From a virus, in IMG/VR virus record IMGVR_UViG_3300006947_000036, positions 1 through 35,713 of that record: DNA of 35,713 nt, one strand, 5' to 3'. Positions 23,324 through 35,430 of this stretch are shown here, in pieces. Position numbers and translations under genes: made by a program. Positions within the stretch are counted from its first letter, which is position 1. Every line of letters begins with the position of its first letter. Below the pieces are notes generated by a model. That model had not been told where the DNA came from. It was given only the letters and a program-made list of their open reading frames with translations, and did not search any database.

Positions 23324-24889
23324 ATGGCACGGTATTACGGACTTGGTCAAACAGCAGGATTTGCTGATGGACTTGCACAAGGTTTTGGGCTGGTCAATGA
23401 AGTCTATAACGACAAAGAAATTAACCGGCTAAAGCAGGAAGAGCTTGATGCAACTTCGGCATATCGCATGGCTGAAACCGAGGCCACATCTAAATACCGT
23501 GACCAGCAGTTTGGGCTTGAAACTCGCGGAGCTGATCTTGCCGATAAAGAGTTTGACTTAACGGAAGCAGAGTCGATTGCCACTAGGGCTAACCAAAAAT
23601 CACAAAGCGAAACCAACTTGCTAAACGCTAATACTGCTCGCACTAACGCTGAGACTGCTAACGCCCGCTCCGCCACTCAAGGCAGAACCGCAGACGAAGC
23701 CATCGCACAAGGGGAGTTTGATAGGAAAGAGGAAGAGAGAAAGCGCAGGAACACAGTAGGGGCAGAGTCTTTGTCGCTAATTTCCGACATGCTGAAGTCA
23801 GACAATTTTGACCCAGATGAGTATGATCGGCTTATTCAGCTCACCGAAGGTACGTCATTTGATGTGTCGAGATTGAGCGGCGACAGTTATGCCACTTTGC
23901 AGAGTGTGGCCGAGCAAAGATTGTCGGCAATGTTGCAGTCGGAAAATCCTGACCTTAATGATCCTGAGCTATTGGCGTCCGCTGGAAGCGTGATAAACGC
24001 TGGGGTCCGCAAAGGAGAGATCGTTGATGATAGTTTTGTAAATGCGCCAGAAGGGTTGAGAAACGGCGAATTCATCATGCACTCAAAAGACGTTTTGAGC
24101 TTAAAGGTGGACTTAAATGACGGCAATCCGTTTGTAGCGGGAACTGTTCGGGTGCATTTGCAGCATAAAGATAACCCCAATAATTTTGTCCACTATGACG
24201 CGCCCATGACTGGCGGCGGACGCTTATCCTCCACCAGTAATCCAGCACAGATTCCTGTACAAGATCTTTTAAACGGGATGAAAGGCATGAGTGCATTAAC
24301 ATCTCAGATACAGCAAGACATTGCTCCATCCCTCAAAGCGGCCAGAATTGAGCAGATGGGAGGCAGAGCAGCCTACCGTCAAGCAGTACAGAGCGACATT
24401 TTAGCTTTGAATACTTTTATTGAGAAAAGCCCAGAGGCTGGGTCTCTAATATCAGGCGTTAAAAACATCGACTTAACCCAAAAAGATATCGCCGGATTAG
24501 CCAGCGACAGAATGCTTGGCTTAGGTCACAACACAGAACCAGATCTCAGAGAAACAGCCAAGTCCACCATAATTAAAGTTCGCGATCAGATTGAAAACAG
24601 TAGCGTTTTTAACGCCGACTTAAACAAATTTTTTAAACAGGACACTACCGACCCACAAAACACCAAAAAGATTCGGATGACGCCAGCTGATTTAAGTGAC
24701 TCTCAGATACTTCTTTTAGCGTCACAGATGGACCAAGACGCCACAACACAGAAGTATTCGCGTAGGCCCGAATACTCTAGCGTTTTGGAATCCATGCTAA
24801 CGACTAATGGTTACGAAATGGACACCAGATCTAATATGAGCGGATTCTTTGACACCAAAAGGGCGCAACTGAAGGGTGATAAACCTTAA
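23324..24889 (+). CDS. Coiled-coil internal virion protein
   Basis: 521 residues. It opens GLGQTAGFADGLAQGFGLV, a Gly-rich amphipathic stretch typical of podophage internal proteins. Then comes a long charged coiled-coil (about residues 30-145: 'YNDKEINRLKQEELDATSAY' to 'EFDRKEEERKRRN'), with Asn/Ala-rich 'NLLNANTARTNAETANARSA'. The C-terminal 370 residues are globular, mixed alpha/beta. The likely role is a core protein beneath the portal, ejected with DNA. It ends sharing its last base with the start of the 3513-aa gene (TTAATGG), implying coupled translation and similar stoichiometric control. No enzymatic motif seen. Confidence 0.7.
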   Translation: MARYYGLGQTAGFADGLAQGFGLVNEVYNDKEINRLKQEELDATSAYRMAETEATSKYRDQQFGLETRGADLADKEFDLTEAESIATRANQKSQSETNLLNANTARTNAETANARSATQGRTADEAIAQGEFDRKEEERKRRNTVGAESLSLISDMLKSDNFDPDEYDRLIQLTEGTSFDVSRLSGDSYATLQSVAEQRLSAMLQSENPDLNDPELLASAGSVINAGVRKGEIVDDSFVNAPEGLRNGEFIMHSKDVLSLKVDLNDGNPFVAGTVRVHLQHKDNPNNFVHYDAPMTGGGRLSSTSNPAQIPVQDLLNGMKGMSALTSQIQQDIAPSLKAARIEQMGGRAAYRQAVQSDILALNTFIEKSPEAGSLISGVKNIDLTQKDIAGLASDRMLGLGHNTEPDLRETAKSTIIKVRDQIENSSVFNADLNKFFKQDTTDPQNTKKIRMTPADLSDSQILLLASQMDQDATTQKYSRRPEYSSVLESMLTTNGYEMDTRSNMSGFFDTKRAQLKGDKP

Positions 24890-27800
24890 TGGCGATTTCC
24901 TCGACAAGGTTTGGCGCTACTCCAAAACCTATTAATTCTGCTAAGCCAGACTACCCCGAAGAAGATATCTCACAATTTGGCGAAGGTCTTTCGGCGGGCT
25001 ATGAAACAACTATCGGCACTATCCAAGGTGTTCGCTCGCTATTTAATACTCTCACGGGTGATGATGAAGAAGCTGAAAAGTACATGCTGTACGCTCAGGA
25101 GCGCTTTCAAGCTGCCGGCGAATCCGGCGGAACGGTTACTAGCTACGATCAGATTGACGGTCTTGAAGACGCTGCAAGGTGGGCAAGTTATTCAATTGGA
25201 ACCGTACTTCCGTCAATTGCTGCCAGTGTTGTAAGTGGCGGAGTAGTCGGCGGTGCGGCATCTATTCTAGGAAAAAAGCTTGTCAGCAAAGCCGTACAAC
25301 GAGAAGTCAAAGATAAGGTTGAAGCGCAGGCATCCAAGGCTGTTAGAGATAGGATGGTGCGCGACATCACTACGCGCAAGTCCAGAGGCTTTCGCTCAGC
25401 GGGTCAGCTGGCTGGCACGATGGGCGCATCGATTGCACAGAACACTGGATCTACCTTTGTTGATGTGTATGAAGAAACTGGAATCATGGCCCCAGATGTT
25501 GCGCTGGCAGCTGGTGTTATGTCAGGTGCGCTGGATGCTCTGGCCCCTCTCAAGATCGCCAAGAAAATTATGCCTAACAAGGTCTTTACACAATTTAAAG
25601 ACAAGATGGCAGACAACCTTGTTAACAGCGGGGGTGTGGTTAAAAGAGCGCTGGTAGAAGGCTTTAAAATAGCGGGGCTTGAGGGTCCAACCGAAGCTAT
25701 GCAGGAGCTTATTCAGGCCTCTGCTGTCGGCATGATGAAGAATGACCCTAACGGTGGCTTCCAAGAATACTATGACGAGTTTATAAGCAACGCTTCTGGC
25801 GAAGACGAAGAGCTAAACACTCGCCTGATAAATGCGTTTCTAGTCGGCGCACTAGGCGGCGGAACTATTGGTTCAGTCACTGGCGCTGTATCTCCACAAA
25901 CTAAAGCGCCGGCCAAGGGTAAGAATAATCTTGAGCAGCCCCCAGCTGGACCCGATGATACACCTCCACCAGCCGGTCCTGACGGCACACCTCCACCCGT
26001 TGGCCCTGATGGATCAGCTCCAGACGCAGCGCCTGACCTAGACAACGAAGAAACTCTTGGGCTTCCTCTATTGGAAGACGAGGACATTGACCTCAAGCTG
26101 CGTGATGCCCGCGAGCGGCAAAAGCAGACAAGGGAAAAGCTGCAAGGTCTAGGCGGGGCAGAGCGACAAGGGCTTAGCCCGAAAGAAGCGCTAGACGCCC
26201 AGCGCGAACAGGAAGCGAAAACAGGAGCGATAGATCTTGAAGCCCCTAAAAAGTATGTTCTTAGTAAGGCATATGAGAACACTGCCCCTGAGATATCGCT
26301 CAACAATCTAGATTTAGAGAAAAGTGGGTTAGAAGAAGCTGACTTCCCTGCGGGGACAAAAGTTCGCTTGTTAGAAACTCGCGGTAGGAATAGGGACGGT
26401 AGGTTAGTTGGTACGGTTCAAATCAGAAACAAAGACTTCATTGACACATTTGAGGTGTTTTTTAATGAGCCTACGCCAACGCGACAAGGGCTTAGCCCTG
26501 AAGAAGCGCTTCTCCGCCAGCGCGAACAGGAGGCGGAGGGCGGTTTCGATAGGGCTTTGCCTCCTGAGCAGCGAGAACAAGAGCAGCGAGAAGACGCCGA
26601 TCTAGAAGCAAAACTTGCTGACGCAAGAGCCAGACAAAAAGCCGCACGGGAAAAAGTTGGCGGGCTGTCTGGCAGTCCTCAAGCATCACCCAATGAAGAT
26701 GCAGAGCTATCTGAGCTAGAGCGTAAAGTTGCAAGCGCACAAGAGCGCCGAAAGGCTGCTATCGAAAACTTGCAGGACGATCTGGACGGTGGCAAGAGAA
26801 GAGGCGTGACGCCAGAAGAGCAGCTGGCTAAGATTCGCGAAGACGAGCAACGTGCGCGTGAAGTTGCTAACGATGCTAAGTTTGATATGAACTTGCGTAG
26901 AACAGCGAAGGCTCAAAAGCTTCTTGAGCAGCTCATCCCTCCGTCTATGGGAGAGACAGGCAGATCTACACCAGAAGAAAATCAGGCGGCTAACAGGGCT
27001 ACTGAAAAAGAAGCAGCGGAGTCCGGCGAGCCTATTCTGCTGGGTCCAGACCGCTTCCTTAAAGATCTTGTCGGCCAGACTGTTGATTACGGTGGAATAG
27101 AAGGTGTACTGACAAAGCGCGACAACGGATACTTTGTTGTTACGGCGGATCAAGACGTTCTTGTTGAGAGCGGAGAAAACTCGGAGACCACCACAGCCGG
27201 TGAGCTAGGGGTTCGTCCAGTCGAGGTCGAAGTCGATGTGCCTCAAAAGCTTGCAACCTACAATCCAGAAGACAACTCCCTGACCTTATCCTACGAACAA
27301 AAGGACAAGAGCTTTAAAGAGGTCAAGCTGACCTATGTCTCTACGGATTTTGATGACGAAGGCAAGGCGGTTTCGGTTTCGGCCACGACACAGGATGGTG
27401 CCAACAGGAAAATTAAAAGCGATAGGATGGTCGCCGCTATTGAGTCTGCCAGAGCTGAGAGTCAGCTACAAGTTACAAGCAGCAACAGGGCGTCAGAGGT
27501 ACAGATTGAAAACCTTCCGCCCAAGGTTGCGCTGGCAGTTATAGATGGTCGCGAAGCATCTGGCGAAGATTCTGGTTCGTCTGTCGTATCAGAAGCCGAA
27601 GCAAACGCTGCCATTAGCAGCTTATCTCCAGCGGATCAGGCAGATCTTGCAAAAAGAACATTGGCTTTATTTGCTGAATCAGAGCTGGTTGATACTCCCG
27701 TACAAACCACGTTTACCGATAAAGATGAGTGGAGAGAGTTCAATGGCAAGACTATCGGTGCTGGAGAGGCCACACTAGAAGAGCGTCAGGCAGTGCTAGA

Positions 27801-30800
27801 TGATCTGGCCGGTCAGCCTGTCAAACAGAATAATGGTGAAGACGTTATCACCATGCCCAGCACGGGTATTGAGCAAATAGCTGAGCGCATTGCGCGGGCG
27901 ATGCGGCGCTCTATTCAAATGGGTAATCCGCTGTCAGGTGAAATCGAAGAGTTTGCCGGCATAGACAGCATCACCAAAATGGGTGGCGACACTGCTGTCG
28001 CGCTTACTGAAATTCAACATGCATTTTTCGATCTAATTGAAAGCGGTATGCCGGTTGAACTGATTGAGCAGATGGAAGCCATGTCGGTCCATACTTCAAG
28101 TTTGGACACTGTGCTAAAAGGAGCTGATGGGGCAGCGGTTAAAAGAGGGATGAGTCTAGATATAGGCGTTGTAGGCGCGTCACGCGAAATGTCCGGTGCA
28201 TCCGCGCTTCGATGGATTATGGCACATGAAGGTTGGCACATTCTTGATTTAAACAGTTCTATTTCTTCTGCAATTCCGGCGTTTAACTCAGAAGTGATAG
28301 TGGGCGCAGACGGTCTTACGCTTCGGGCGGGGGCAGTGGTCAATGAGCTGTATGAGAATTACCTACAAGGCACTGCTCTTGGCAAAGTTTTTCAATATCC
28401 TTTTGCATTGATTGAAGACCAAGCTCAGGCATCTATATATGGAACCGATTCTGACGGATTCAATTCTGACTTTGAAAGCATTGGAAACACTATTCGGCAG
28501 GAAGTTTTTGCTCAGTTGGGCGCTATATACTTGAGCGATCCAAAACTGCTAAAGTCACAAGCGCCGCAGGCATATGAAATTATTCGCACAATTCGCGACA
28601 ACCCAACTCTTAACGAGGACTTCTCAAATGACAACGCTAATCAAACTGGGCAAGCCGAAGCTCAGCCCGAAAGTGCAGGAGTACAGGGACAAGTTCGGAC
28701 ACCTCCCGTCAGCGGAAGCAATGAAGTGGAGGACAACGGAGGATCTGGAGATAATGGCGGAAGTAGCCCTGAGACAGGGCAGGCCGCGCAAGGACTGGTC
28801 GGAGAGACCCAACAAGGTGACGGGGACAGTGACGGACGGGTGGTACGCGAAGAAACCGAAGGCGTAACTCCTCCTGTCGCTCCGGTAGTTAGCGAGCAGC
28901 AGCCCCTCTTCACCCCGACCAGCGTTGAGCGCTTACGAGAAATTGACCCTTCCTTTAATCAGGCCAAGGTCAGGTCTCTCGCGCAACTTGACGAAAGAAT
29001 TCCCACAGAGGAAAGAATAGCTGGTCGTTATGTTAGCGGCGAACCTTTAGTCACAAACTCTGGCGGACAATTCTCAGATCTTGATTTGACGGCTCGCGGT
29101 GAAGGTCTTGATATTACTCAGGCTCAGCTTGAAGACATTTTCTCTGAGGCTATTAGGTTAACAGACACAAACGCTGACGGTCAGATCGGAGATCTCGCTC
29201 AGAAAACAATTGAGCGCTTAGGTATCAATCCGAATACGGTTGAGTTCTGGGACCGATCTTTACGGTTGACTGATAATGCGCGGTACTGGTACGAGGTGTC
29301 AGCGGAGGCAATGCGTAAGGTCTTGCCTGACCTATCTGATGCTGAGATCAAGCAGTTCATCTCTGTAGTTGCTGCAACCTCGCCGGTTGCGAATCCTTTC
29401 GTGAACATGCACAGGGCGCTGGCAAGCTTTTCTAACCATCTTCAGGGCAATCCGATAGACAATGATCTGGTTATCCAGAAGAGCGTTACAGATGCACTCA
29501 AGACCTCTGACCTAGAGGGTCTCAAGACCGGATCGTTTGGTGGGACCATGCAGCTGGTTCTGGGCATGAATAAGCCTACCTTATCGACCAATGACCGACA
29601 GGTCGCGGCAACCTTCAATACGGACGGTGAAGCGATTGGCAAGAACCCTGAGCTTTACGAGGTTATGTCTCGGTTCTACATAGGGATGAGAGATGTTCTT
29701 AACGCCAAGCTGCCAGAGGGCGCACAGCCCTATGAAACGTGGCAGCTACAGGCTCTTGGATGGGTTGAGCAGCGCTACAAAAACGAATTCCTGAAAGACA
29801 AAAAGACCGAGGGCGTCAAGGAGGAAGATGCCTTGGCCCTGTATGAAGCTGCCTCACCAGCGGAAAGAGCGAGCGGTGCTAATGATGTGGACGATTACAG
29901 CATGTCACTACTCCGCAGAGACAGCACTGGGGGACAGCCAAGAAAAGGCGCTATACAGGTGCTGGAAGAGGCGGGAATATCCGTCCCTAACGACAAGATC
30001 ACTAAAGAGATCCTGCTAGACCCACAGGTTCCAGCCGCGCTTAGCCCGACTACAGCGGGTTTCAAAGAAAAACGCATTATCACAGCCGAGATCAACAGCC
30101 AGCGGAACCCAATAGGGCAGTCCTCACGGGCGATTTATGATGCGGCAGTAGAGCAAGGTAACGACAAAGTCGCTAACGAGTATGCGAAAATCTTTGGCAC
30201 ACTGCTAAACAAAGCATCTAAGGGTGAAACTAATCCCTTCACTTTATACTTTTCGGCGCTTGGGCTACCAGAGGCGGCAGCTAAAACCACTAGAGTTGCC
30301 ATGCCCACAGGCGGTGTGCCGCTTGCGGTAGGTGGAACCTACCAAGGGGATGTATCTCCCAACATTCGGGTTCCGGTTCCTGCCTCTATCACCAGTGATC
30401 AGCTTGACATTCTTATGACCTCGCTGTCTAAGCAGTGGGACCAAGATGCTATCCCTGCATCCCACGTTATTGATATGACAGGCGGTCTCAGAGAGGGCTA
30501 CACAGAGACCAGTCAGGTGTTTGTCTCAACACTAGAGCCTTTGTCTAAAGAACAGATAGAGAGCTTTTATGCGGCCCTGCCCGAAGGGGCGGAAATTAAC
30601 TTTACTCGCTATCCGAATGGCTATGAGTTCAACGTCTTGATGTTTGATGCAGACAGTAACCCCATTACCGCTGACATGGATCAGGTAGCACTTGCGGCTG
30701 GTCAGATGCTAAAAATCAGCGATTCAAGCATAACTAATGTCAGTACCAAAGAGGCTCAGTTTACACCGGCTGGCTATTCTCAAATCGAAAACTATGACAA

Positions 30801-33800
30801 GCTCTTTGCAAGTTTCAAGGAATCTTTATATACTGCGAGGGCGAAAGACGAAATTGGCAAGATACAGAGGAAGAAAGATGGCCGACTCAAAGACCTCACC
30901 GAAAAGCAAATTGTTGCAGCCCTACGAAGGAAAAGTCCCCCAAGTGATCTTGCGGGGCAAGGAAGCGCTAGAATTCAACGAGCGCATGGGGCTATCCAGC
31001 AGCAGCTTAGTAGTTTCAAACAAGCTGAGCAAGTCGCCAAAAGCCTAGCGGAGTCTCGCGACACCAAGCTCAAGCTATTCGTCCAGAAAAACGCCAAGAA
31101 GGTTGGCGTCACCCTACCCGATAATAAGACAGATGCTGCCCCAGTAGAAAAGCCCCTTCTCATGAAGAGCGGGGATGACTCCAATGTTTCAGACCTATCT
31201 GCTCGCCGAGAGATGAACAACCTTAAAGAATTTAGAAGGGGGTTCATGGGTGGGCTGCAAGATAAGATTCAGCAGTCGAAAGAGTTTAATAAAGCAGCAG
31301 AAGCTGACGGACTCTTTGGATCTTTTGAGAAAGGCATGCGCTACGTCGCGACTCAAAAAAATAGTGACGGAAAGACCGTTTCATTTAAAAGCGAGATTCT
31401 TCTATTATCAATGAATAGGGTTAGCGCTCTGGACCGCTCTGGAAAGTACAGCCCTTTTGGTGCAATACCAGCAGACAAGATCATCAAAGGCCCAGACGGT
31501 AAAGATCATACTGCTACAGTTTGGACAAAAACGATTAACCCTAACGGGGAGGAAAGTACATCTACCGCATCATTATGGAAGCTAGAGCGGCAGTTGGCGG
31601 ATGGCAATCTAAAGTTCATGGGGGGATTGCGAGGAGTTCCAGCACAATCAGACAAGCCCCTGTTCATGAAGCGCAGTGGCGAAACTAGAAAGATTGAAGC
31701 TGGCGACACCGAGGGTCTTACCCGCAGAAAGTTTCTAAACCGAATCGCTGCTGCCGCAGTGCTGGGTGGCGCGGGCGCATATAGTGTCACGCCATCCTTA
31801 ACTAGCGGTCCTCTTGTGCGCGGCAAGGCGAAGCCACTTGATCAGTTTATAAACAACCCCCTATCTGAGGCATCCTTAGACGCATTGAGAAACAATGATT
31901 TAATTTCCGCAATTGACATCGCCCTTGAAGGTGCGCCTGCCGAAATTTTGCAGCTCGCGGAAGACATTAAAAAAACCCTACCCAAACAATCTACATATAC
32001 CACCGGCGTTGAAATGGGCATCTGGAATGTTGCTGGTGTGGTTAACCCTGAAGATCGCACATTAAAAATAATGCCAGAGAGCGATGGCAACCTTGCGACA
32101 CTGCTGCATGAAGCCATGCATATGTCTGTTGCTTCTAGATACCTATCGTTAAGCACGGCAACGTCTAGGAACTTTGACACCGTCAAGATCAGCCAGCCAC
32201 AAGCCAGAGAAGCTATTGATCAGTTTTACTCAATCTGGAAAGAGTTTGGGAAAGCGATTGACGCTAAGAGGGCAAACGGAGAGGAGATTACCTTTGCCGA
32301 AGAGACTGCGGCAGCAGATCCAGACGAGTTATTTGCGCGGTCCTTAACCAGTCCTGAGTTTCAGGAGTCATTGTATGCAATGAACTATCAGGGTAAAACT
32401 CTTTTAGAGCGATTTAAGGACTGGGTTAAGCAGTACCTGTTCGCAAGTGAAGGCACCACGCCAACATGGCTTGACGCAGCGCTCACTGGGTCTAGAGATA
32501 TTCTCAACGCAAGCGATACTGACAGCGCTAACTTTGATTTTACTGCTGCCATCAGCGCCAAGATAAAAGAAGGAAAAGCGCGGGCAAACCAAAAGCCTCT
32601 GTTCATGAAGCGACCATCGGGCCAGACTCAGTCTTATGAGGACGCATTAGAAACAAGGACTCTACTTAACGGGGAGCCAACGTCTAACGAGATTACTCTG
32701 GATGACGAGACTCGCATTGAAGCCAGCATCAGAAAGCTACAAGACAAGTACCTGACGCTTAAAAAGTTTCAGGTTAAGGCTGCTGAGTTTCTTGGAATCA
32801 ATGAGCTGCCACCTGAGCTGGACGCTTATATGGGCGAAGAGCTGATGTCCGGTAAGCTCAAGAGTGACTTTGACGGTCTAGAGTCTGATTTCGTTAAGCC
32901 CATTGGGGATATCCTCCGCGCTAACGACATGGATGTGGATGACGCTGGCCTTTATTTAATGGCGAAGCATGCGAGAGAGCGCAACGCGTATATAGCCTCT
33001 ATCAATAAAAGCATGCCTGACGGTGGCTCCGGCTTGACGAATGAGCAGGCTGATCAGGTTTTAAATGCGGCCCGCGAAGACGGTACTCTGGAAGCTAAGG
33101 AAGAGATAGCAGAGATTGTCTATGACATGCTTCAAAAGAACCGCGACAGGATGGCTGAATCTGGCTTGCTAGACGAAGGCACAGTTGATTCATGGAACGA
33201 AAACTATGACTACTATGTTCCTTTGAAGGGCTTTGCTGCCACTCAAGACGAAGATGGAAGGTTCATTGCCGCGAGAGGAATATCCAAAGGCTTCAACGTA
33301 TCCGGTAAGGAAGCAATGGCTGCGCTTGGACGAGAGAGCCAGTCTGACAATCCATTACTGTTCTCTTTGTTTGACGTTGAGAACAAGATGGTACGCGCCC
33401 GCCGCAATGAAGTCGGTCAGCGATTCCTGACAATGGCCGAGGCTGTTTCTGCTGCGGGCAGTAAGCAGTTTACTGTTTTCCGCGATGGGGACATGCCGAC
33501 TGAGCGCTTCACGGACCCAGCATCCGGTGAGGTTGGCCTGCGGGCCATGACTGCCGAATCTATTCGCAGTAAAATGCGTGATGACACTGGCGACAAGCAG
33601 TACATGGGCGTCAAGGTTGACGGTAAGGAAGTCTTTATTGAGATCAAGCATGCCGGATTAAACCGAGCCATGCACAATGTCGGCGCTGATTCGTTTGACA
33701 ATCTGGCGGGACTACTCGACAAGGGCGTTGGATTTTTGCAGAAATTTCAAAACTTCCGCCGCAACATGCTGATCAACTATAACCCAAGCTGGATGGTGAT

Positions 33801-35430
33801 TAACCCGTTGCGAGATGTTCAGACAGGCATCATGTATAACCTTGCAGAGGAGAGCAAAGAGGGCGGCAGGGTCTTCGGCGAAAATATGACTGCCGAAATT
33901 TTGGCTAACTATTTGCCGACCGGCAAGGCGTACTTTCAAAATGCTCGCGGCAACTCAAGCGGCAACCCTGAGCTTGACGCTTTCTATAAGGAGTATCAGG
34001 AAGCGGGAGCAGCAACAGGGCTGACTCTCACTAGAGATATTGACGAGCAGAAGAGGCGCTTAGCGTCTATGATTTCGGATGGGTCGATCAAGAATGGCAT
34101 CCGGTCTCTTGGCAAGCTCGTTGAAGATCTCAATGCTTCTTCGGAAAACGTGATCCGGTTTGCGACATTTGTTGCGGCTCGTAGAAATGATGTGACTCTG
34201 GAGAAGGCTGCGAGTCTGGCGAAAAACCTGACTGTAAACTTTACCCGAAAGGGCGAGCTGTCATCTGGCGTTAACTTGATGTATCTATTTTTCAACGCTG
34301 CTGTGCAGGGTACAGCCAACATCGCTCAGGCCATGTCTGGAAGGTCAGCGTCTGGCGGACCTACCAAAGCCCAAATAGCTGTCGCCTCGATGACGTTAAT
34401 CAGTTACTTGGTGACCGAGCATAACCTCATGGCGTCTGAAGAAGACGATGACGGGGCCAGTGTTTACGATGACCTGTCTGATTACGACAAGCTGATGAGC
34501 TGGAACATCGTGAAGGCGGACGGCAAGAGCTTCCACCAGATCCCCATGCCATACGGCTATGGATTTTTCCACACGATTGGCAGGCTTGGCGCTGAGTACG
34601 CAAACGAGTCGATTGATTTCGGAGATGTGCTGGCTACAACCACCGCGGCATTCGCCCACCATATGCTTCCGCCTCCGCTAGGGTTTGTGGGAGCAATCGG
34701 CAAGTCTGATGATGCTATGGATTTTGTCAGCAGGGCAGCTGTAGATCTGGCCCCTGATATTGTCGAGCCTGTTCTTGCACTTGCGGTGAACAAGAATCAC
34801 TTTGGGTCTCCCATTTATTTAGAGAGCAACCCTCTTATGACGCCCGCGCCTGACTCATCCAAGTCTAAGCGCTCCACCGAGAAGATTTACAAAGATCTAG
34901 CTCAGATAATGAACGATGCTTCTGGCGGCTCATTGTACAGAACGGGCGATGTCGATGTGTCTCCTGATGCGATGAAATATGCGGTGGAGTATCTAAGCGG
35001 AGGAGTGGGTAGGTTTGTGAGCAGGAGCATGGATGTCTCGTACAAGCTTGGCAATGACGTTCCAGCGGACGATGTACCTTTGGGGGAATACCCTATAGCT
35101 CGATACTTCAATGGTGAACCGAGCCACTACAACGATCAGATGGAGTATTACGAAAACATTGGAGATGCCCAGCAAATCTTTTTGGAGAACAAGGAGATCT
35201 CTGGACCAGAAAAAGTATTGTTCGCCAAGCAGAATGCGCCGGTCATTAAACTGGAAACACAATACAAGTCGGTGCAGAAACAGCTACGCGCATTAAGGAA
35301 ACAGAAGAAGCTCATAGAGAAGAATCAAACTAATCCGGTCAGGGCTTATGAGCTGATCACTCAGATTGAAGAAAAGATGCAGTTGCTGTTCGATCAATTT
35401 AACAAAAATTACAGGGCTGCAACCAAATAA
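24889..35430 (+). CDS. Giant polyvalent internal virion protein (two HExxH domains, Tat-like motif, LPD38-like end)
   Basis: 3513 residues in one frame. Order: residues 1-340, Gly/Ala-rich amphipathic segments ('TVLPSIAASVVSGGVVGG'; EGPTEAMQELIQ at 265) resembling ejected phage proteins; 345-378, Pro-rich repeats (PPPAGPDGT); about 395-670, repeated charged helices; about 715-870, small beta domains; about 1040-1220, metallopeptidase-like domain, HEGWH at 1113-1117 with EVFAQL Glu1205 as possible third ligand; 1247-1335, low-complexity linker; about 1340-2000, conserved unknown domains ('YWYEVSAEAMRKVLPDLSDA', SPVANPFVNMHRA); 2278-2300, Tat-like signal; about 2305-2520, second metallopeptidase-like domain, HEAMH at 2407-2411 with DELFARSL Glu2480; 2580-3513, LPD38-like end ('PDAMKYAVEYLSGGVGRFVS'). 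Known polyvalent proteins are packaged and injected to act early in the host. Peptidase activity and Tat function are inferred. Confidence 0.85.
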   Translation: MAISSTRFGATPKPINSAKPDYPEEDISQFGEGLSAGYETTIGTIQGVRSLFNTLTGDDEEAEKYMLYAQERFQAAGESGGTVTSYDQIDGLEDAARWASYSIGTVLPSIAASVVSGGVVGGAASILGKKLVSKAVQREVKDKVEAQASKAVRDRMVRDITTRKSRGFRSAGQLAGTMGASIAQNTGSTFVDVYEETGIMAPDVALAAGVMSGALDALAPLKIAKKIMPNKVFTQFKDKMADNLVNSGGVVKRALVEGFKIAGLEGPTEAMQELIQASAVGMMKNDPNGGFQEYYDEFISNASGEDEELNTRLINAFLVGALGGGTIGSVTGAVSPQTKAPAKGKNNLEQPPAGPDDTPPPAGPDGTPPPVGPDGSAPDAAPDLDNEETLGLPLLEDEDIDLKLRDARERQKQTREKLQGLGGAERQGLSPKEALDAQREQEAKTGAIDLEAPKKYVLSKAYENTAPEISLNNLDLEKSGLEEADFPAGTKVRLLETRGRNRDGRLVGTVQIRNKDFIDTFEVFFNEPTPTRQGLSPEEALLRQREQEAEGGFDRALPPEQREQEQREDADLEAKLADARARQKAAREKVGGLSGSPQASPNEDAELSELERKVASAQERRKAAIENLQDDLDGGKRRGVTPEEQLAKIREDEQRAREVANDAKFDMNLRRTAKAQKLLEQLIPPSMGETGRSTPEENQAANRATEKEAAESGEPILLGPDRFLKDLVGQTVDYGGIEGVLTKRDNGYFVVTADQDVLVESGENSETTTAGELGVRPVEVEVDVPQKLATYNPEDNSLTLSYEQKDKSFKEVKLTYVSTDFDDEGKAVSVSATTQDGANRKIKSDRMVAAIESARAESQLQVTSSNRASEVQIENLPPKVALAVIDGREASGEDSGSSVVSEAEANAAISSLSPADQADLAKRTLALFAESELVDTPVQTTFTDKDEWREFNGKTIGAGEATLEERQAVLDDLAGQPVKQNNGEDVITMPSTGIEQIAERIARAMRRSIQMGNPLSGEIEEFAGIDSITKMGGDTAVALTEIQHAFFDLIESGMPVELIEQMEAMSVHTSSLDTVLKGADGAAVKRGMSLDIGVVGASREMSGASALRWIMAHEGWHILDLNSSISSAIPAFNSEVIVGADGLTLRAGAVVNELYENYLQGTALGKVFQYPFALIEDQAQASIYGTDSDGFNSDFESIGNTIRQEVFAQLGAIYLSDPKLLKSQAPQAYEIIRTIRDNPTLNEDFSNDNANQTGQAEAQPESAGVQGQVRTPPVSGSNEVEDNGGSGDNGGSSPETGQAAQGLVGETQQGDGDSDGRVVREETEGVTPPVAPVVSEQQPLFTPTSVERLREIDPSFNQAKVRSLAQLDERIPTEERIAGRYVSGEPLVTNSGGQFSDLDLTARGEGLDITQAQLEDIFSEAIRLTDTNADGQIGDLAQKTIERLGINPNTVEFWDRSLRLTDNARYWYEVSAEAMRKVLPDLSDAEIKQFISVVAATSPVANPFVNMHRALASFSNHLQGNPIDNDLVIQKSVTDALKTSDLEGLKTGSFGGTMQLVLGMNKPTLSTNDRQVAATFNTDGEAIGKNPELYEVMSRFYIGMRDVLNAKLPEGAQPYETWQLQALGWVEQRYKNEFLKDKKTEGVKEEDALALYEAASPAERASGANDVDDYSMSLLRRDSTGGQPRKGAIQVLEEAGISVPNDKITKEILLDPQVPAALSPTTAGFKEKRIITAEINSQRNPIGQSSRAIYDAAVEQGNDKVANEYAKIFGTLLNKASKGETNPFTLYFSALGLPEAAAKTTRVAMPTGGVPLAVGGTYQGDVSPNIRVPVPASITSDQLDILMTSLSKQWDQDAIPASHVIDMTGGLREGYTETSQVFVSTLEPLSKEQIESFYAALPEGAEINFTRYPNGYEFNVLMFDADSNPITADMDQVALAAGQMLKISDSSITNVSTKEAQFTPAGYSQIENYDKLFASFKESLYTARAKDEIGKIQRKKDGRLKDLTEKQIVAALRRKSPPSDLAGQGSARIQRAHGAIQQQLSSFKQAEQVAKSLAESRDTKLKLFVQKNAKKVGVTLPDNKTDAAPVEKPLLMKSGDDSNVSDLSARREMNNLKEFRRGFMGGLQDKIQQSKEFNKAAEADGLFGSFEKGMRYVATQKNSDGKTVSFKSEILLLSMNRVSALDRSGKYSPFGAIPADKIIKGPDGKDHTATVWTKTINPNGEESTSTASLWKLERQLADGNLKFMGGLRGVPAQSDKPLFMKRSGETRKIEAGDTEGLTRRKFLNRIAAAAVLGGAGAYSVTPSLTSGPLVRGKAKPLDQFINNPLSEASLDALRNNDLISAIDIALEGAPAEILQLAEDIKKTLPKQSTYTTGVEMGIWNVAGVVNPEDRTLKIMPESDGNLATLLHEAMHMSVASRYLSLSTATSRNFDTVKISQPQAREAIDQFYSIWKEFGKAIDAKRANGEEITFAEETAAADPDELFARSLTSPEFQESLYAMNYQGKTLLERFKDWVKQYLFASEGTTPTWLDAALTGSRDILNASDTDSANFDFTAAISAKIKEGKARANQKPLFMKRPSGQTQSYEDALETRTLLNGEPTSNEITLDDETRIEASIRKLQDKYLTLKKFQVKAAEFLGINELPPELDAYMGEELMSGKLKSDFDGLESDFVKPIGDILRANDMDVDDAGLYLMAKHARERNAYIASINKSMPDGGSGLTNEQADQVLNAAREDGTLEAKEEIAEIVYDMLQKNRDRMAESGLLDEGTVDSWNENYDYYVPLKGFAATQDEDGRFIAARGISKGFNVSGKEAMAALGRESQSDNPLLFSLFDVENKMVRARRNEVGQRFLTMAEAVSAAGSKQFTVFRDGDMPTERFTDPASGEVGLRAMTAESIRSKMRDDTGDKQYMGVKVDGKEVFIEIKHAGLNRAMHNVGADSFDNLAGLLDKGVGFLQKFQNFRRNMLINYNPSWMVINPLRDVQTGIMYNLAEESKEGGRVFGENMTAEILANYLPTGKAYFQNARGNSSGNPELDAFYKEYQEAGAATGLTLTRDIDEQKRRLASMISDGSIKNGIRSLGKLVEDLNASSENVIRFATFVAARRNDVTLEKAASLAKNLTVNFTRKGELSSGVNLMYLFFNAAVQGTANIAQAMSGRSASGGPTKAQIAVASMTLISYLVTEHNLMASEEDDDGASVYDDLSDYDKLMSWNIVKADGKSFHQIPMPYGYGFFHTIGRLGAEYANESIDFGDVLATTTAAFAHHMLPPPLGFVGAIGKSDDAMDFVSRAAVDLAPDIVEPVLALAVNKNHFGSPIYLESNPLMTPAPDSSKSKRSTEKIYKDLAQIMNDASGGSLYRTGDVDVSPDAMKYAVEYLSGGVGRFVSRSMDVSYKLGNDVPADDVPLGEYPIARYFNGEPSHYNDQMEYYENIGDAQQIFLENKEISGPEKVLFAKQNAPVIKLETQYKSVQKQLRALRKQKKLIEKNQTNPVRAYELITQIEEKMQLLFDQFNKNYRAATK
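26163..26217 (+). repeat. Direct repeat, copy 1 (inside giant gene)
   Basis: A 55-base segment coding for RQGLSPKEALDAQREQEA. It matches 26481-26535 at 48 of 55 positions, including identical GCGACAAGGGCTTAGCCC and CAGCGCGAACAGGA blocks. This points to an internal duplication 318 bases apart within the coiled-coil part of the giant protein. Confidence 0.9.
26481..26535 (+). repeat. Direct repeat, copy 2 (inside giant gene)
   Basis: The second copy of the 55-base segment at 26163-26217, coding for RQGLSPEEALLRQREQEA at residues 532-549. A third, more diverged protein copy (RRGVTPEEQLAKIREDEQ) begins near residue 638, so the module was probably repeated at least three times. Confidence 0.9.
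28628..28867 (+). CDS. Nested small gene in another frame inside the giant gene
   Basis: A 79-residue ORF in the +1 frame relative to the giant gene, starting at ATG 28628 with GAGGAC (28615-28620) at ideal spacing. It reads as an ordinary folded small protein: KLSPKVQEYRDKFGHLPSAE, then MKWRTTEDLEIMAEVALRQG, a basic KDWSERPNK and a C-terminal TGTVTDGWYAKKPKA. In contrast, the giant protein over the same bases is an unstructured Gln/Gly/Ser/Asn/Glu-rich linker (about residues 1247-1327). That contrast suggests the nested frame is under protein-level selection, and the linker is what the other frame is forced to encode. It starts just where the first metallopeptidase-like domain ends. No family name can be given with confidence. 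Confidence 0.6.
   Translation: MTTLIKLGKPKLSPKVQEYRDKFGHLPSAEAMKWRTTEDLEIMAEVALRQGRPRKDWSERPNKVTGTVTDGWYAKKPKA
30878..31048 (+). CDS. Second nested small ORF inside the giant gene (possible)
   Basis: A 56-residue ORF in the other frame, beginning MADSKTSPKSKLLQPYEGKV at ATG 30878, with GAGG (30867-30870) 7 bases upstream. It continues VPQVILRGKEALEFNERMG and ends KLSKSPKA. As with the ORF at 28628, it lies in an inter-domain part of the giant protein and ends about 100 bases before a KPLLMK junction motif. The giant-frame sequence here is a basic helical linker of more ordinary composition, so the coding contrast is weaker. It may be a real overprinted gene or chance. Confidence 0.35.
   Translation: MADSKTSPKSKLLQPYEGKVPQVILRGKEALEFNERMGLSSSSLVVSNKLSKSPKA

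Follow-up and report, generated by a model that had tools for sequence, protein, structure and literature searches.

Whether a short open reading frame lying inside a giant viral gene is a gene in its own right, and what it might do beside the domains that surround it, is the question raised by a locus in IMG/VR record IMGVR_UViG_3300006947_000036. The window, that is, the whole stretch of DNA analysed, comprises 35,713 nucleotides (positions 1 to 35,713 of the record). The features on which the question turns are the following.

24889 to 35430, plus strand: giant host gene of 3513 amino acids, resembling phage polyvalent proteins by its LPD38 domain and PHROG matches, its frame uninterrupted across the overlap in every distinct homologue.
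28069 to 28614, plus strand: zincin-type metallopeptidase domain of the giant protein, directly upstream of the nested start, with the motif HEGWH at 28225-28239 and invariant H, E, H and D plus a downstream E.
28615 to 28619, plus strand: Shine-Dalgarno element GAGGA, 8 nt spacer to ATG 28628, with pairing at nested starts far stronger than at out-of-frame ATGs of the giant genes.
28628 to 28867, plus strand: nested overprinted gene of 79 amino acids in the +1 frame relative to the giant gene, found in the same frame and position in 41 of 41 distinct complete homologues and under nested-frame purifying selection.
28628 to 28930, plus strand: low-complexity linker of the giant frame (residue 1247 onward), overlapping the nested gene and stop-free in 41 distinct homologues.

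The first-pass annotation had described a 79-residue ORF opening at ATG 28628 behind a good ribosome binding site, over bases that encode a low-complexity linker in the giant frame, and these particulars were borne out. The start codon occupies 28628-28630 and the stop codon ends at 28867; length, GAGGA element and spacer are those given above, and in the window the giant frame over the nested bases is rich in N, Q, G, S, E and D. The ORF lies wholly within another coding gene, on the same strand and in a different frame. Its start codon is kept in all homologues: ATG or GTG is present in 40 of the 41 as listed, and in the last (L105), with a listed start of GTC, the frame reads QMVK and places a Met one codon earlier. 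SD-like pairing of -5 kcal/mol or better precedes the start in 35 of the 41. The median pairing energy is -6.6 kcal/mol at nested starts, whereas for the 3931 out-of-frame ATGs that these giant genes contain it is -2.4 (p = 4e-20), a comparison that is somewhat flattered because the nested starts were partly picked by SD strength among nearby in-frame candidates.

The first searches with the nested protein alone gave no match. A 500-residue piece of the giant protein downstream of the linker, used as query, retrieved eight contigs, all eight of which carry the nested frame at 35-50% identity and in the same frame. A profile of the nested protein matched 36 contigs, these eight included, and in all 36 the ORF is nested within an open giant frame. 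A profile of the zincin domain directly upstream, in which the nested sequence was unused, yielded 53 loci. Nineteen new contigs came from this profile alone, and the nested ORF is present in 18 of them (in one case cut by the contig end); the nineteenth, L082, stops at the domain boundary. The nested profile also led to a Flavobacteriales MAG contig (L049) with a nested copy, and two further contigs came from the final scans. The total is 58 contigs including the window (57 besides it), with 41 distinct complete nested proteins; the carriers are read as a group of uncultured phages. In every homologue found the frame is +1 and the giant frame is open, and wherever its position could be checked the nested gene directly follows the HExxH zincin domain. 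The most divergent member (L098:10341-10553) is without the conserved C-terminal GT..D..Y part.

A stand-alone homologue, for which the first-pass annotation had hoped, did not appear: no copy outside the giant gene was found by tblastn of five members against phages, at E limits of 1 or 10, and of a single member against plasmids, or by profile or motif scans of viral and genome contigs. Homologues in which stops, or loss of the start or SD, accompany a preserved giant frame were also sought, since they would speak against a gene; no homologue had lost the frame, and the SD-like pairing is as widespread as given above. Weak T7-like matches of one member (L008) were dropped because their E values were 1-9 and one that was inspected (H7) ran antisense to an annotated internal virion gene. 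An HMM search for the nested family gave no match in the giant genes of a Stx podophage (L046) and a Vibrio phage (L047). In L046 the SD-preceded +1 or +2 ORFs are arginine-rich and composition-like, and L047 has none.

The annotation had further held that the nested frame is the conserved, selected one, and had proposed comparing constraint in the two frames on aligned homologues; the comparison upheld this. Across 11 close sister pairs, in which the opportunity for the two substitution classes is roughly equal, 117 differences change the giant protein but leave the nested one unaltered, versus 42 that change the nested protein and are silent in the giant frame (p = 4e-12). The mean identity among the 41 distinct complete nested proteins is 42.6%, compared with 31.0% for the giant frame over the same bases and 40.9% for the zincin domain, and in 98% of pairs it is the nested frame that is better conserved. 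Heterozygosity at the third position of giant codons drops from 0.636 in the zincin domain, where it is the most variable of the three positions, to 0.346 in the overlap, where it is the least variable because it coincides with the second position of nested codons. The giant frame is also under selection to stay open, since it survives without a stop in 0.1% of random shuffles that keep the nested protein unchanged, and yet it is stop-free across the overlap in 41 of 41 distinct homologues.

The reverse test is less telling. Giant-synonymous codon shuffles keep the nested frame open in 28% of cases for the window and 32% on average, so that openness of the nested frame says little by itself. 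Many alternative-frame ORFs of the giant gene also show shadow similarity; in a control covering all 70 alternative-frame ORFs, the nested gene alone has a mean ratio of alternative to host bits above 1 (1.24; next 0.83). A +1 ORF at 30737-31048 (103 residues) looks conserved by tblastn, but its ratio is 0.70 and the homologues examined have stops in it; it was set aside as shadow similarity. Antisense ORFs across the nested gene differ in length among loci, have mean ratios below 1 and were likewise treated as shadow. The nested ORF is more than a product of chance, given its intactness in 41 of 41 homologues, the strength of its SD and the purifying selection in its frame. From the sequence comparison it is nearly certain that the ORF is a gene, and very probable that it is a genuine overprinted gene with its own initiation.

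The host of this gene had been called a giant internal virion protein. Its giant size stood; the 'internal virion' label was refined to polyvalent-protein-like on account of its zincin and LPD38 domains. LPD38 (PF18857) lies at the C-terminus (E 6e-34), PHROGs 14770, 616 and 10691 match the C-terminal 900 residues, and the C-terminus is about 33% identical to giant genes of Stx podophages and Vibrio phages. The zincin assignment is made at superfamily level in Pfam (best E 7.8e-7), and tblastn gave no match for this domain in cultured phages. Of the characters of polyvalent proteins, the giant thus has an LPD domain and a zincin with HExxH and a downstream E, the latter placed at the level of the Pfam superfamily, and we regard it as resembling phage polyvalent proteins. 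A further domain follows the linker.

29188 to 30688, plus strand: next domain of the giant protein, swapped among contigs that all keep the nested gene; its identity is 71-78% in a few loci, and it was not detected in the others.

Contigs sharing this domain at 71-78% identity are about 27-39% identical to the window in their zincin and N-terminal parts, a pattern read as domain exchange. Elsewhere in the giant protein, an interdomain repeat (QPLFTPTS, KPLLMKSGD, KPLFMKRSG and KPLFMKRPSG at residues 1339, 2089, 2257 and 2570) is a candidate processing site; a scan of other giants showed no exact repeats of this motif. Residues 2278-2300 form a twin-arginine-like stretch, TRRKFLNRIAAAAVLGGAGA, and a second HExxH (HEAMH, residue 2407) lies about 110-130 residues downstream.

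The nested proteins range from 70 to 92 residues among homologues and are mostly basic, the median pI being 9.7. Positions holding Y, FGH, E, A, P, W, R, G and D are near-invariant. An AF2 model built from 23 sequences is helical, with a pLDDT of 71.5. Inspection by eye of the aligned members revealed no cysteine, no hydrophobic N-terminal segment and no Rz1-like lipobox. There was no accepted family match in PHROGs, Pfam or NCBIfam and none in the PDB by profile search, and no fold match for the model (best Foldseek E 0.5; no VIA Z of 2). DUF3046 (PF11248) was rejected as a family at a best score of 17.0 bits against a curated cut-off of 25, as were Xre antitoxin and ribosomal L47, the matches being below cut-off or from single members.

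In the account we prefer, the internal SD and ATG or GTG on the giant mRNA would start translation in the +1 frame and yield a mostly basic, helical protein of 70-92 residues, and other ribosomes would read through in the giant frame to produce a disordered linker from the same bases. The nested gene presumably arose de novo within that linker. For the zincins of polyvalent proteins, Iyer et al. propose a role in processing the polypeptide itself (PMC5512222). The small protein may work in trans on the neighbouring zincin, inhibiting, chaperoning or activating it and thereby timing the processing of the giant protein, and the two would be made together from one stretch of mRNA. That it is a trans-acting partner or inhibitor of the zincin, a link drawn from its position, is offered as a rather doubtful proposal; no fold or family match from PHROGs, Pfam, NCBIfam, PDB profiles or Foldseek pointed to an inhibitor. 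The composite picture, in which the same bases, read in two frames, specify both a phage polyvalent protein and a trans-acting regulator of its protease, must be considered unlikely as a whole.

The positional link itself is consistent: the zincin stands beside the nested gene in 41 of 41 distinct loci, and the sequence after the nested gene falls into eight unrelated clusters. This co-occurrence could be explained without a functional link, since adjacency alone gives co-inheritance, and HExxH motifs occur in other LPD38 giants that have no recognisable nested gene. An overprinted gene with an independent job, such as host takeover, counter-defence or a role as a virion component, has to be weighed, and its probability lies somewhat below an even chance, an estimate that lumps all such roles and that competes with the functional step rather than with the existence of the gene. 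Such a gene would stay by the zincin because it was born in the linker and could not move without breaking the giant gene. The lack of a stand-alone copy in the searches is what de novo birth in place leads one to expect, and pairwise identities of the nested proteins track the giant N-terminus (Spearman 0.76) as well as they track the zincin (0.74). Against an independent job, the nested gene was never seen apart from the zincin even though the sequence that follows has repeatedly been exchanged.

A programmed +1 frameshift would dispense with a separate start by fusing the N-terminal part of the giant (about 1,245 residues in the window) to the nested peptide. The nested frame is indeed +1 and begins just past a domain boundary, and the SD-like element is in principle capable of promoting a shift. 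However, the start codon is retained in all homologues and the SD spacing suits initiation. Moreover, in nine homologues, including L105 with its listed start one codon off, an in-frame stop precedes the listed start by 0 or 1 codon, so that a shift could occur nowhere but at the start itself. A non-systematic view of upstream sequences showed no slippery site common to them, and a frameshift origin appears very improbable. A chance ORF, or a shadow cast by conservation of either the giant protein or a DNA element, would accord with a frame that is open in about a third of synonymous shuffles and with the shadow similarity of other alternative frames, but it is refuted by the present results and retains scarcely any probability, as the nested frame outconserves the giant frame, substitutions are nested-synonymous and no homologue has a stop, whereas stops do interrupt the shadow candidate at 30737-31048 in the homologues examined.

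Taken as an independently initiated gene, the nested ORF has a familiar counterpart. In the lambda Rz/Rz1 pair, a small phage gene is embedded in another, in a different frame and with its own start. Rz1, which belongs to the lysis cassette, is a lipoprotein of the outer membrane (PMC5295617, PMC6139136). The likeness to these two-component spanins lies in the small nested phage gene, the other frame and the own start; unlike Rz1, the present product is basic and helical, without an evident lipobox or membrane segment (by eye), and its giant host is a non-lysis gene. With polyvalent proteins, as portrayed by Iyer et al. (2017, PMC5512222), the giant shares its very large size, multidomain and shuffled organization, and HExxH zincin together with LPD38, but the polypeptide does not include the nested gene; in a term search of that article, 'overlapping' did not occur. 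Nested overlapping genes as such are a known kind in viruses, as treated in PMC7017920 and PMC8227390, and the survey among these (PMC7017920) gives 30% as the share of viral gene overlaps that lie totally within another gene. The survey was built on reference annotations, whereas here selection was measured in both frames over 41 distinct homologues. What is new, as far as the collections searched show, is the protein family, together with its constant position after the zincin in giants of polyvalent type.

Genes wholly nested in large dsDNA phage genes are easily missed because annotators call the longest ORF. The present case indicates that there is room for compact genes in the disordered linkers of giant phage proteins, and it supplies a measured example on which ideas of gene birth through overprinting can be tested. 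It also brings forward a possible regulator of proteases thought to process injected phage proteins. If that role is true, the regulator would not be easily lost or separated from the protease under its control.
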